This document shows, one piece after another, positions 18,091 through 27,531 of a DNA stretch of 64,000 nt. Made by a program: the position numbers and the translations under genes. The notes under the pieces are model-generated. The model saw nothing but the letters and a program-made list of their open reading frames with translations. It was not told the origin of the DNA and did no database searches. Source of the DNA: Fodinibius sp. Rm-B-1B1-1 (lineage in GTDB: Bacteria > Bacteroidota > Rhodothermia > Balneolales > Balneolaceae); contig NZ_JBCFYD010000002.1 in assembly GCF_038594945.1 (NCBI RefSeq), forward strand, positions 1,302,001-1,366,000. The letters run 5' to 3'. Each line of letters starts with the position of its first letter. The stretch's first letter is position 1.

Positions 18091-20691
18091 TTATTTTACA
18101 ACCAGATTCACAATCCGTTCGGGGACAAAAATCTCTTTCACAACATTTCCGTCTTCCAAATATTTCTTCACATTCTTGTCGGCCTTCGCCTCTGAAAGTA
18201 CATACTTTTTATCCTTGGCTTTTTCACGGGGAACATGAATCTCTCCACGCACCTTGCCATTCACCTGGATAGGATACAGCTGCGTATCGGAAATCAAGTA
18301 TTCCTCGTTAAATTCTGGCCATTCGGCATAAGTGATCGACTTATCATGACCGAGCCTATTCCATAACTCCTCAGCGATATGCGGTGCAAACGGAGACAGA
18401 AGCTTAACAAAAGGCTCCAAAATAGACTTGGGGTGGTCATCCCACTTATTGGCTTCATTGATAAAAATCATCATCGCTGAAATAGCCGTATTAAACGCCA
18501 GTCCCTCAATATCACCAGTCACTTTCTGAATACATTCGTGCAAGGTTTTCAACTGTTCTTTAGATGGTTCCTCATCCGTAACAGAATCATTTAACGCCCC
18601 ACTATCTTCATCAATCATCAGACGCCACACGCGTCCCAAGAAGCGATATACACCATCCACATCTTGGGTGCTCCACGGCTTCACCTGCTCCAGCGGCCCC
18701 ATAAACATTTCGTACAGCCGCATGGAATCCGCGCCGTACTGCTCCACAATATCATCGGGATTTACTACATTCCCGCGCGATTTCGACATCTTGTGCGCTT
18801 TGGCATCCACGGTGATTTCCGTGCCTTTGATCACAAAGTTATCACCTTTTTTCTCTACCTGATCTTCACTTAGCTTCACACGCTCAACATCCTCTACCTC
18901 ATCGGCAGCATCAGTAGAAATCCAATTGCCCTCACTTTTGAAACCAGTAAATTCCATCTCACCAAGTATCATGCCCTGGTGAACCAATCGCTGGAACGGC
19001 TCTTTGGTAGATACCACTCCGCAATCATACAATACCTTGTGCCAAAAACGGGCATACAACAAGTGCAACACGCTGTGCTCGGCACCACCCACGTACATAT
19101 CCACCGGCATCCAGTAGTTTTCTTCATTGGGATCTACAGGCCCTTCATTAAATTCGGGACTACAATAGCGAAGATAATACCAACATGACCCCGCCCATTG
19201 CGGCATCGTATTCGTTTCACGCTTAGCCGGTTTTCCAGTTTCAGGATCCTCGGTATTTACCCAGTCAGTTGCTTTGGCCAGTGGCGGCTCACCGTCTTCT
19301 GTGGGTTCAAAATCATCCATTTCGGGTAAGGTTACCGGCAAGTTATCTTTGCCAACAGGCTTTGGTTCACCATCAACGTGGATAATAGGGAATGGTTCGC
19401 CCCAATAACGCTGACGGGAGAATAGCCAATCACGAAGCTTATAATTGACGGCTTTTTCTCCCTGCCCGATTTTCTCGAGCCAGTCAGTGATTTTTTCAAT
19501 CGCTTCATCAACCGACAATCCATTCAGTGAAATATCATCACTTTCCGAGTTGACCAGCGTTCCCTCTTCGGTATCCGTATAAGCTCCTTCGGTAATATCA
19601 CCACCTTCAACAACCTCTACGATATCCAGATCAAACTTTTGGGCAAATTCCCAGTCGCGGTCATCATGTCCCGGCACAGCCATAATCGCCCCGGTGCCAT
19701 ACGTCACCAATACATAGTCAGCTACCAGAATGGGGATCTCTTCCCCTGTTGCGGGATTTATCGCATGGGCCCCTGTAAATACGCCCGTTTTTTCATCACT
19801 AAGCTCCGTGCGTTCTAAATCAGATTTTCGGGCCGCTTCTTCTTGATAGTCTTCTACCGCTTTTTTCTGATCTTCCGTCGTAATCTTATCAACTAAATCA
19901 TGTTCCGGAGCCAGTACCATATAGGTTGCCCCAAAAATAGTATCGGGACGTGTGGTAAATACGCGGATTTCTTCGTCATAACCGGCAATTTCAAAATCAA
20001 TGTCGGCGCCGATGGATTTTCCGATCCAGTCGCGCTGCATCTTTTTAGTAGATTCCGGCCAATCCAAATCATCAAGCCCTTCCAACAAACGATCAGCATA
20101 TTCGGTAATCTTAAGCACCCACTGACGCATGGGCTTTTTCACAACCGGAAAGCCACCTACTTCACTCTTTCCATCGATCACTTCTTCATTAGCCAACACG
20201 GTTCCCAACTCAGGACACCAGTTTACCGGCACATCATCTTCGTAAGCCAGTCCCTTCTCGTACAGTTTCAGAAAAATCCACTGTGTCCACTTATAATAAT
20301 CGGGATCAGTGGTATTCACTTCGCGGTCCCAGTCATAGCTAAAACCCAAATCCTGGAGCTGTTCCCGAAACCGATTTACATTCTCCTGTGTGGTTTCTCG
20401 TGGATGCGTGCCCGTCTTCACGGCATACTGTTCGGCCGGCAATCCAAAGGCATCCCATCCAATAGGATGCAACACGTTAAAACCGTTCATGCGCTTGTAG
20501 CGCGCCAGGATATCGGTAGCCGTGTACCCTTCGGGATGCCCTACATGTAACCCCGAACCACTGGGATATGGAAACATATCCAACACATAATATTTGGGCT
20601 TATCATGATCTTCTGGCGTTTTAAACGTTTTGTTCTCCTGCCAATACTGTTGCCATTTGGATTCAATATCTTCCGGCTTGTACGAACTCAT
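18091..20691 (-). CDS. leuS: Leucine--tRNA ligase
   Basis: 866 residues, the bacterial LeuRS length. The class-I signature is [12 protein letters not shown] (H49-H52), the KMSKS loop [16 protein letters not shown] is near residue 630, and the editing domain CP1 has [12 protein letters not shown] (~245) and [20 protein letters not shown] with the [10 protein letters not shown] end. The catalytic-core motif [11 protein letters not shown] and the C-terminal [12 protein letters not shown] are also present. It charges tRNA-Leu and edits mischarged norvaline/isoleucine. The ATG at 20691 is unambiguous. It appears to be transcribed alone; the upstream 290-base gap holds a palindromic repeat. Confidence 0.98.
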
Positions 20692-20764: not shown

Positions 20765-20825
20765 GTCACCCTGAATTTATTTCAGGATCTATCAGATGTA
20801 GAGGCTGAAACCAGTTCAGCATGAC
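20765..20825. repeat. Palindromic intergenic repeat (REP-like), copy 1
   Basis: In the 290-base gap between leuS and the Na/Pi cotransporter gene. The ends are inverted: GTCACCCTGAA at 20765-20775 and TTCAGCATGAC at 20815-20825 (10 of 11 bases pair), and the left arm is itself a small hairpin (CCTGAA...TTCAGG). Its left 26 bases match the element inside luxE at 27319 at 19 of 26 positions. Translating through it gives the peptide CHAELVSAS, well known from dispersed repeats of many bacterial genomes. The rest of the gap shows no gene. Confidence 0.8.
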
Positions 20826-25296: not shown

Positions 25297-26370
25297 CTAA
25301 TCAATTAACCATTCCAACAGATCTACCCCATCGGGTTTCCAAAAAAGGGCTGGTTGCTGCACATGAGTTAATAACTCAATTTCCTGCTTCAAATCGGGTA
25401 CCTCCGTTTGGGAATCTGTTACATATATGCTCTGCAATTGTGACTCATACCGTTGGGACAACTCAGCCACCTTAGACTTACCTCCCTGCACCCAGTAGCA
25501 GACAAAATCCTGATCAAGTTCAAAACCGCCCTCCTGCAACAAAAAGTATTTTAGCCACAACTGCGGACGTTCGATAGCCTCGTTGTACGCATACTGCTGT
25601 TTAAGCTTGGCAGGCGGTAGTTCGTGCTGGGGATTTTCGAGCCAAAAATTTTTTATCTGATCAGTAAGCCCCTCCTTTACATCATCTATCAAAAAGGGAG
25701 AAACAACCACTGCAACTGAACGGCATCCCTTCCCACCATATCGCAATATTCCATCAGCTAACTCCCGTAGTGTTTTGTTGTCTTTTTGGTCCAGATAAGC
25801 CATTGAAAAATGGGCTGTGCGAATCAAAAATTGGGTACCTTCATGAGCCAACTCAAACTTATCTATCGCATCTCTTACCTCCGGTACCGAAGACTCCGAT
25901 CCGGCAAAAACAACTGCATCGTGCGGCATGCCCTCAAAATCACCTAATCGGTGCGTCCACTGTACATCCATATCTGACCACTGCCCTGTTTTCTTAACCT
26001 CATTCAAAAATGTAGGGAGCAAATACGGATCTTTTCGTGAAATCTTTCCAGTATAGCGGGCGCCACTTAACAGTGTTGCAAACGCATCCTGAAATCCCAC
26101 CAGCGGCAGATTTCCTGCGTGCAGGCACAATACATTTTTTCGAGATGCATTATGCTCATCATCTAATTCCGCGCGCTTAACCCACTTTTCTATGACTGAC
26201 TCACTGATACTCTTTCTAATAACATCAATAGCATAATTGACATCCTCAAAACTGAAATAACCTTCCCGCACCGTTCGGTCGATGGCATCAGCTAAATATT
26301 GATTGTCATCGTGAAGCCAATTTTTGGTGGCTTCAAACAACGCATTTATTCTTTTTTGGGTATTTGTCAT
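25297..26370 (-). CDS. Acyl-CoA reductase, LuxC-like
   Basis: 357 residues of the LuxC family (PF05893), an aldehyde-dehydrogenase-like fold reducing acyl-thioesters to aldehydes with NADPH. Seen are VLCLHAGNLPLVGFQDAF, DAVVFAGSESSVPEVRDAI (nucleotide-binding) and GILRYGGKGCRSVAVVVSP, where the Cys is the probable acyl-accepting nucleophile. The C-terminal RPQLWLKYFLLQEGGFEL matches the substrate domain. It follows the LuxE-like gene with a 102-base gap containing an inverted repeat. LuxC and LuxE together convert fatty acids to aldehydes for luciferase, but no luxAB is in the window, so the product aldehyde must serve another purpose. Confidence 0.85.
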   Translation of the reverse strand: MTNTQKRINALFEATKNWLHDDNQYLADAIDRTVREGYFSFEDVNYAIDVIRKSISESVIEKWVKRAELDDEHNASRKNVLCLHAGNLPLVGFQDAFATLLSGARYTGKISRKDPYLLPTFLNEVKKTGQWSDMDVQWTHRLGDFEGMPHDAVVFAGSESSVPEVRDAIDKFELAHEGTQFLIRTAHFSMAYLDQKDNKTLRELADGILRYGGKGCRSVAVVVSPFLIDDVKEGLTDQIKNFWLENPQHELPPAKLKQQYAYNEAIERPQLWLKYFLLQEGGFELDQDFVCYWVQGGKSKVAELSQRYESQLQSIYVTDSQTEVPDLKQEIELLTHVQQPALFWKPDGVDLLEWLID

Positions 26371-26472: not shown

Positions 26473-27531
26473 TTAATCTTCATCGATTAAAAAATTGCAG
26501 CCACGCAAATCTTTGGGATTCCATCGCCCCAATACCTGGAAGCGACCCTTTTTATCCATCACTCCTTTGTCGCCCGTCAATAAAAAAGAACAGCTATGCA
26601 CATTGGCCAGATCAATTACTCCAATCAGTCCCTCCTTGTACGGCGGTAAAATCTCGGCTGGATTATTGGGATTGCGAATCGTTACCTGCATCCAAGGCAC
26701 CGTCTGAAACCACTTTCCTCCAGTTGTATAAGCCTGACTTAATAACTCAGCCATGCCGTATTCCGAATGAATGCGACTACCATCCAATCCAAAACCGTTA
26801 GCTAAGCGGCTATGCAATTCACTGCGAGAAACTTCTCGACGATGCGTTTTCATTCCCCCGGTTTCAATAATAATACTATTGGATGGCAATTCTACTTTTT
26901 CCATCTCTAATAAATCCAATAATCCAAAAGCAGCGCCAAACAGAATAAGCTGCTTACCCTGACGCTTGACTTCTTTCACCGCGCCGGGGTTCAAGGGCTT
27001 ATCCAGTGGCAAAAACCGACTCAGCCCACTATTATCCTGATCAATGAGCTTCTGAATCATATAAATCAGCGAGGAATGCGGGTTTTCAGAATACCCCGGT
27101 GTATAGCCCCAGATCACAGTATTATCAAGCTTGTAAAAATGACGAAATCCCTTTAACAATGACTGATCATAAAGCTCTGGATCATGCACTCGGTGGATAC
27201 TTCGCTGCATTTCCGAAGTGCCACTGCTTTTGAATACAAGCCCCGATTCCTGTCCGGAATGCGTAGTTACCGCAGCATCTTTAAACACTTTGATGGGTAG
27301 TAAAGGATAAGAAGTAATGTCATCCTGAACTCGGTTCAAAATCTTTTCCTTTACATTTTTTGATACAGACTCCGAGGCAAGGTCGGAATGACACGAGCTT
27401 TTAACGGTTTCCAATGCTTTACAATACCGCTGATACACCAAATTATTTTCAAACTGGTATTCGAAAACCTGTTTGGCTTTCTCTGCAAAGGGAAGCTCCT
27501 CAGAAAAAATAAATTCTGACCAATTCTCCAT
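26473..27531 (-). CDS. Acyl-protein synthetase, LuxE-like, with internal repeat-derived peptide
   Basis: 352 residues of the LuxE family (PF04443), which activates fatty acids as acyl-AMP and transfers them to the reductase subunit. Markers: SSGTSEMQRSIHRVHDPELY (AMP-binding-type Ser/Thr loop), ILFGAAFGLLDLLE, IIIETGGMKTHRREVSR and GLDGSRIHSEYGMAELLSQAY. At residues 46-73 the sequence reads SCHSDLASESVSKNV...ILNRVQDDI, which is the translation of an inserted palindromic repeat (27319-27392) and is not expected in LuxE. The frame is kept, so the protein is probably functional, with the insert as a loop near the N-terminus. It precedes the LuxC-like gene. Confidence 0.83.
   Translation of the reverse strand: MENWSEFIFSEELPFAEKAKQVFEYQFENNLVYQRYCKALETVKSSCHSDLASESVSKNVKEKILNRVQDDITSYPLLPIKVFKDAAVTTHSGQESGLVFKSSGTSEMQRSIHRVHDPELYDQSLLKGFRHFYKLDNTVIWGYTPGYSENPHSSLIYMIQKLIDQDNSGLSRFLPLDKPLNPGAVKEVKRQGKQLILFGAAFGLLDLLEMEKVELPSNSIIIETGGMKTHRREVSRSELHSRLANGFGLDGSRIHSEYGMAELLSQAYTTGGKWFQTVPWMQVTIRNPNNPAEILPPYKEGLIGVIDLANVHSCSFLLTGDKGVMDKKGRFQVLGRWNPKDLRGCNFLIDED
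27319..27392. repeat. Palindromic repeat inserted in frame within luxE, copy 2
   Basis: Begins GTCATCCTGAAC (27319-27330) and ends GGTCGGAATGAC (27381-27392), imperfect inverted ends. Its left 26 bases match the intergenic copy at 20765 at 19 of 26 positions. On the coding strand it is translated to CHSDLASES...ILNRVQDDI, a peptide characteristic of such repeats. It thus behaves like the protein-coding palindromic elements known from Rickettsia. Confidence 0.8.

Follow-up and report, generated by a model that had tools for sequence, protein, structure and literature searches.

A head-to-head REP dimer in frame within the LuxE gene of Fodinibius: probably one old insertion, found whole, halved, decayed or lost among relatives

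Introduction

How does a mobile palindromic repeat come to lie in frame within an enzyme gene, and what becomes of it there? The question is raised by a stretch of 64,000 nucleotides (the window) from the genome of Fodinibius sp. Rm-B-1B1-1, a member of a salt-loving genus (Balneolota; genome 97.7% complete), in which the gene for a LuxE-like acyl-protein synthetase holds a 74-bp copy of a dispersed repeat. An earlier note on this DNA had described the copy as a palindromic element translated within the coding region, and had proposed that it may change a loop near the N terminus of the enzyme. Events of this kind are already known, in-frame intragenic REPs being on record in two papers (PMC3733652; PMC3767692). 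The host lineage, the gene and the graded series of copies are new to us; our literature search was too narrow to claim that they are unpublished. The reading that we prefer, with a probability of about 0.75, is that one old insertion of a REP dimer into the LuxE linker was tolerated and then worn down by in-frame changes.

Results

The host gene and its insert

The host gene (26473-27531, minus strand; 352 residues) is an open reading frame that matches Pfam PF04443 (48.7 bits; cut-off 24.9) and, by profile, the LuxE chain (chain E) of PDB 7xc6 (E 3e-23). PaaK-type adenylating enzymes head the fold matches of its predicted model, the best being PaaK1 (2y27; E 6.8e-12, TM 0.59). The enzyme motifs are kept: SSGT, SEYGM and other columns are invariant in 29 aligned LuxE sequences. 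The adjoining gene (25297-26370, minus strand) encodes a LuxC-like acyl-CoA reductase (Pfam PF05893, 34.8 bits; cut-off 21), likely the partner enzyme of LuxE to judge by sequence.

The repeat in the LuxE gene (27319-27392) was borne out as an in-frame, 74-base element by sequence, pattern search and DNA comparison. It reads GTCATCCTGAACTCGGTTCAAAATCT, a 22-base spacer and AGACTCCGAGGCAAGGTCGGAATGAC, and with the flanking T and A it runs TGTCAT...ATGACA. Two REP units, arranged head to head, make it up: the first (27319-27344, plus strand; 3' half on the gene strand) has no mismatch to the degenerate unit pattern and encodes ILNRVQDD; the spacer occupies 27345-27366; the second (27367-27392, minus strand; 5' half on the gene strand) encodes CHSDLASES and is too diverged for the 26-base pattern search. 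The first unit retains six of eight stem pairs; the second retains seven, one of them G-U.

On the gene strand the peptide CHSDLASESVSKNVKEKILNRVQDD falls into the blocks CHSDLASES-VSKNVKEK-ILNRVQDD. The insert had been put at residues 46-73; its place in the N-terminal part of the protein stands, and its span is corrected to residues 47-71. The insert-derived extension comes to about 28 residues in the N-terminal linker, between an N-terminal helical pair and a conserved PLLPI segment, distant in sequence from SSGT and SEYGM.

A gene start downstream of the insert, or a pseudogene, would make the in-frame position an artefact of annotation, and the nearness of the insert, at residues 47-71 in a protein of 352, to the N terminus speaks for such an error. 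We regard it as scarcely credible: residues 1-45 align across genera (e.g., FEYQxENN), Q26 is conserved in 29 of 29 orthologues and later residues are invariant, and no stop codon occurs within the LuxE matches of the genus.

AlphaFold gave the same pTM (0.87) for this LuxE and for that of a relative without insert (G005). Of the five models of the former, two fell well short of the others (mean pLDDT 72 and 62). In the top-ranked one 223 of 352 residues reach a pLDDT of at least 90; residues 51-57 fall below 50, residues 60-70 form a helix (block mean 76 for 61-70), and the last residues of the chain are low too. Confidence in the insert is thus low to moderate, and the core of the enzyme is predicted intact. 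The suggested change of an N-terminal loop holds insofar as the linker is lengthened; no change of the enzyme as such is seen, its predicted core being alike whether the insert is present or absent. As for the surface loop looked for in the earlier note, the model points to a low-confidence segment followed by a helix, probably exposed at the surface.

The repeat family

The degenerate 26-base unit pattern is matched 77 times in the whole genome at up to two mismatches and its reversed form not once, which excludes chance for the repeat family; the element is dispersed, as had been supposed, and has further copies throughout the genome. Matches with more than two mismatches were sought in the fetched loci and the window. 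At up to four mismatches 92 matches were obtained there in 65 clusters, of which seven (single matches with four mismatches) were dropped as chance, leaving 58 sites. All 27 two-match clusters are head-to-head, three of them being minimal 27-bp palindromes read on both strands; the clusters with two separate units are so without exception (24 of 24), and the remaining 38 of the 65 clusters are single matches. The related intergenic copy reported earlier is real and was matched in sequence and in the pattern search: it is a full copy of 61 bp (20765-20825) upstream of a minus-strand ORF (18091-20691), which we take from its sequence to encode leucyl-tRNA synthetase.

Every unit folds as a hairpin, its 8-bp stem closed by a loop of 5 bases. 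The "inverted ends" first described are therefore indeed an inverted pair, but not a simple inverted repeat, each end being a hairpin itself with covariation in its stem. Stem position 1 is A-T in 75 of the 77 units and position 2 is T-A in 61 and C-G in 8; the loop is CTTGT in 30 and TTTAT in 20; TGTC precedes the stem in most of the full copies listed; the tail is CT and a variable base. Covariation was assessed on 74 of the 77 units (50 distinct), with three units from two minimal palindromes left out. Pairing was found in 91.8% of stem cells, against at most 52.3% with a slid partner, and both sides had changed in 27 stem cells, where shuffling gave 8.4 on average (0/500 shuffles as high). 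Three of five covariation measures lay above all 500 shuffles, and two lay within them (pairs with both-side change, 237/500; further pair types, 380/500).

Two variants of the unit pair were seen. A subclass of 60-61 bp in the genome of Rm-B-1B1-1 (e.g., C1:446924, C1:1123782, C2:524135, C2:1136121) has a very short, near-palindromic spacer resembling RTTGYAAT, and some partner units at two loci (L011 and L018, near position 1500) hold an extra nested hairpin (CCCCGAAAGGTCGGGG-like) inside the unit. Rfam has no family at the element (two listed matches elsewhere are below cut-offs), and a literature search for the peptide HAELVSAS and two 15-base cores found no paper.

The insert in LuxE folds at -22.3 kcal/mol (z -2.84; 3/200 shuffles as good), and that of Fodinibius (Aliifodinibius) salipaludis (G002), a few bases of which are missing at one end, folds at z -4.83 (0/200 shuffles). 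Such folding could speak for a role of the nucleic acid itself, a hairpin in luxE mRNA tuning translation or stability of the luxE-luxC message. That reading is very improbable in our estimation, as there are species with half an insert or none, and as two 3' stem pairs have been lost here by changes that are both silent relative to the family consensus (ATC -> ATT, CTG -> TTG). Stable folding is, besides, shared by the intergenic copy at 20765 (z -4.45) and hence characterises the family rather than the LuxE site.

The insert in related species

The LuxE gene is present in 12 of 12 Fodinibius genomes, and the insert occurs in graded states. It is whole at the DNA level in Rm-B-1B1-1, F. salipaludis and an uncultured Aliifodinibius (G004); the 3' half stands alone in a second uncultured Aliifodinibius (G008) and in G009; the 5' half stands alone in F. 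salsisoli (G007); a decayed 3' half is left in G003 and G010; relics are probably left in G001 and G006; G011 has no clear copy and G005 no insert. All recognisable pieces in the genus share one frame, one orientation and similar flanking codons. The linker of G005 is shorter than those of other genera, which would fit deletion of an insert rather than a site that was never occupied.

Beyond the genus, LuxE was matched in 46 genomes; 17 orthologues were aligned, and 16 of them have no such insertion. The protein alignment drew on 30 fetched loci, with the partial gene L049 left out. The residues of the insert are thus absent from repeat-free homologues, as the earlier note would have it. In the exception (G021, L045) the site is occupied by an extension of similar length. 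Its segment DKLMGLAREDV resembles EKILNRVQDDI (shuffle P 0.001; rest of the extension P 0.047; both post hoc), and the extension may go back to this insertion, in a copy that has decayed completely.

These states bear on whether the insert has been domesticated, its peptide (chiefly the 3' half, [IL][LM]xx[VIA][QR]xD[IV]) working in LuxE, for example as a helix contacting LuxC, and being kept by selection on the protein. The 3' half is retained most often, ILxxVQDD-like residues being recognisable in 7 of 12 genomes (Rm-B-1B1-1, G002, G004, G008, G009, G003, G010), even where the hairpin has decayed to three of eight pairs (G010). The silent changes that break the 3' hairpin of Rm-B-1B1-1, the similar peptide in G021 (a post hoc match) and the predicted helix at 60-70 point the same way. 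Against this, the insert is absent from G005, has no clear copy in G011, has lost its 3' half in F. salsisoli and is missing from 16 of 17 orthologues of other genera, and non-silent changes are common within the 3' half.

Codon comparisons were mixed. Of 27 pairwise comparisons 23 were not significant, which counts against this reading; the other four, all in the 3' half, gave P 0.011-0.029, uncorrected (Rm-B-1B1-1 with G009; G002 with G008; G002 with G009; G008 with G009). Domestication is accordingly a doubtful alternative to a tolerated and decaying insertion. Its fullest form is to be held just as tentatively: a selfish REP whose 3' unit has become a LuxE helix, retained at the protein level in much of the genus and perhaps in a sister genus too, while the palindrome decays or is refreshed through exchange with further copies.

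One insertion or several

A tree of LuxE alone left 10 of its 14 inner branches open and was replaced by one of neighbouring proteins without LuxE (2,713 columns, of which 1,188 are gaps in G009). Rm-B-1B1-1, G002, G004 and G008 form a clade (100%) in which G004 joins G008 (99%); F. salsisoli and G005 fall in the other main Fodinibius clade (100%); support for other deep branches is 44-70%. As G008, with the 3' half only, is nested in the clade of whole inserts at 99-100%, its 5' half was lost secondarily, by in-frame deletion. With F. salsisoli and G005 on the other side of the main split of the genus, the simplest assumption is an insertion older than that split.

Some evidence is left unexplained by a single insertion with neutral decay, namely full hairpins and discordant sites. 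All eight stem pairs are present in half-elements of G002, G008 and F. salsisoli, although at identical residues elsewhere in the gene only 60% of codons agree between G002 and G008 and 43% between G002 and F. salsisoli. Between the 5' halves of G002 and F. salsisoli, two stem positions have changed in both partners of the pair. A site pattern uniting Rm-B-1B1-1 with G004 against G002 with G008 accounts for 7 of the 42 sites in the 3' half plus flank but for 25 of 828 in the body of the gene (Fisher P 0.0005), and this grouping of Rm-B-1B1-1 with G004 contradicts the species tree. This points to recombination at the site, to gene conversion or to a further insertion; local exchange, be it from one lineage to another or with copies elsewhere, is likely.

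The same observations could be read as repeated targeting, the site having been hit or overwritten several times by insertion or gene conversion, with the intact copies of G002, G008 and F. salsisoli recent. Inserts also appear to be in better condition in genomes rich in the family (12 genomes, grouped post hoc; one-sided Mann-Whitney P 0.03). This too we consider unlikely: the pieces share frame, orientation and similar flanking codons, and no donor with the spacer of G002 was found in five genomes (the query being the 5' half and spacer with a small part of the 3' half). That a single codon should be struck in frame more than once is, moreover, improbable when nearly all other copies examined avoid genes.

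Where copies lie relative to genes

Two of the 58 sites in Rm-B-1B1-1 lie wholly within an ORF of at least 80 residues, and of these the LuxE copy alone lies far from the ends of its ORF; the other stops four bases before the stop of an 89-residue ORF. Nine further sites overlap the edge of an ORF, seven by 5-10 bases and the others by 25 and 47. In 400-kb blocks of Rm-B-1B1-1, G004, G002 and G008, where ORFs of at least 90 residues sum to 91-92% of the length, 22 elements with E <1 were found, 18 intergenic and four intragenic, and all four intragenic elements lie in LuxE; a reversed control search gave none at E <1. LuxE is also the only site of the Rm-B-1B1-1 block with an element in all three other blocks. 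At its six intergenic sites an element is present in G002 at four (one of them weak), in G008 at one of the six, and in G004 at one of five that could be judged (weak, with non-adjacent flanks).

Units in ORFs of at least 100 residues were counted in samples of 30 from two genomes: five in G101, a genome of another Balneolaceae genus (219 units), and one in G003 (93 units). Four intragenic cases of G101 were read and none is a convincing mid-protein insertion. In an Rrf2-family regulator (L238:981-1553) a C-terminal tail, MEILNQVQDDV, is element-derived, a counterpart of the LuxE case; one unit lies near the start of a 102-residue ORF, one lies in an ORF without Pfam match, and one precedes a stretch that we presume to be a signal peptide. 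No second convincing mid-gene copy was met in the stretches examined. The consensus of the 5' unit is open in two of three reading frames and that of the 3' unit in one of three; so few open frames, together with selection, would explain the rarity of copies within genes.

Search for a mobiliser

PF01797 (Y1/REP transposase) has no match in the genome of Rm-B-1B1-1, nor in those of G004, G006 and G008. These four genomes hold 77, 37, 29 and 43 units, respectively; the number of repeats does not track the presence of the transposase. The sole trace in Rm-B-1B1-1 is a broken REP-transposase remnant (NF047646, 17.1 and 14.7 bits). It lies at G000:C1:1522084-1522377 (L119), near a GTPase gene that we read as era, as a 125-residue open frame with its HxH motif kept and the middle of the domain missing; the 3.2-kb locus around it contains no repeat unit.

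Twenty weak PF01797 loci in relatives (G002, G003, G007, G009, G016, G034) have no convincing unit in the 1.6 kb around the ORF, though one has a pair 1.6 kb upstream and one a poor match 429 bp downstream; of four such proteins checked against NCBIfam, two reach the REP-transposase cut-off. With no intact gene found in Rm-B-1B1-1 and no convincing units beside these weak loci of relatives, a Y1/REP transposase is not supported as the mobiliser, though it may have been one in the past. At least one unit match is present in 66 of 92 genomes of the wider family (Balneolaceae); G101, with the most matches among the 92 (219), is a candidate host of an active mobiliser.

Discussion

The course of events under a single, tolerated insertion would be as follows. 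A non-coding, TGTC-tagged head-to-head dimer would have entered LuxE a single time, no later than the common ancestor of Fodinibius. It would have survived there as it landed in a variable linker, running from the N-terminal helices to PLLPI, and in a reading frame that leaves both units open. From then on, changes would have been limited to in-frame deletions and to substitutions that leave the enzyme working; since losses had to keep the frame, halves remain. The insert is probably read into the protein, where it would add a helix or loop, and its effect is probably near neutral.

With whole, halved, relic and lost states of one REP insertion in one genus, the fate of in-frame mobile palindromes becomes testable outside Rickettsia. 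One site in 58 well inside an ORF indicates strong exclusion from genes, which aids the reading of REP-derived peptides in protein databases. According to PMC3733652 CGTC repeats have no dedicated transposase, and Balneolaceae genomes, with up to 219 units, are a place to seek one. A lead towards the mobiliser is offered by PMC6006769, in which the TnpA-REP transposases include a Bacteroidetes subclass (2.6) flanked by "atypical secondary structures".

Comparison with known systems

As a protein, the host belongs with LuxE acyl-protein synthetases and PaaK-like enzymes (PF04443; chain E of 7xc6; PaaK1 fold matches), and differs from the LuxE family by the element-derived N-terminal linker extension.

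As a repeat, the element fits the CGTC/TGTC REP superfamily (Di Nocera et al. 2013, PMC3733652). In that paper the superfamily has an unpaired terminal CGTC, often TGTC, tag; a stem of 8-9 bp with A-T complementarity at the first two positions; a loop of 4-5 bases; tails of which most fit CCA; a predominance of head-to-head dimers; no linked transposase; and hosts that include Bacteroidetes. Flexible linkers and loops are named there as possibly neutral places of insertion. The TGTC tag, the stem, the 5-base loop, the dimers, the mainly intergenic position with occasional in-frame copies and the lack of a linked transposase among the genes searched are alike; the tail (CT and a variable base, not the usual CCA) and the host phylum (Balneolota) differ. 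The exact family would be CGTC-2, to judge by stem and loop length.

REPINs and RAYTs (Bertels and Rainey 2011, PMC3116915; PMC6006769) are alike in inverted doublets of units that form a larger hairpin and are largely extragenic. They differ in a GT[AG]G tag and a linked RAYT gene, neither of which was found here, where the tag is TGTC.

The comparison with Rickettsia drawn in the earlier note was apt, RPE-4 and RPE-6 being placed in the CGTC superfamily in PMC3733652, where in-frame intragenic copies are on record, most of them in R. conorii (RPE-4, RPE-6). PMC3767692 reports an ATGAC motif in RPE-4, -6 and -7, and inserts at the same site of Rickettsia orthologues, taken there as one old insertion or as hotspots. 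Shared in-frame inserts at an orthologous site are thus common to RPE-4, RPE-6 and the element described here. In Rickettsia, by these accounts, many genes carry inserts; in this genome one gene does, and the frequent in-frame insertion typical of RPEs is not seen in Rm-B-1B1-1, where one of 58 sites lies well inside an ORF.
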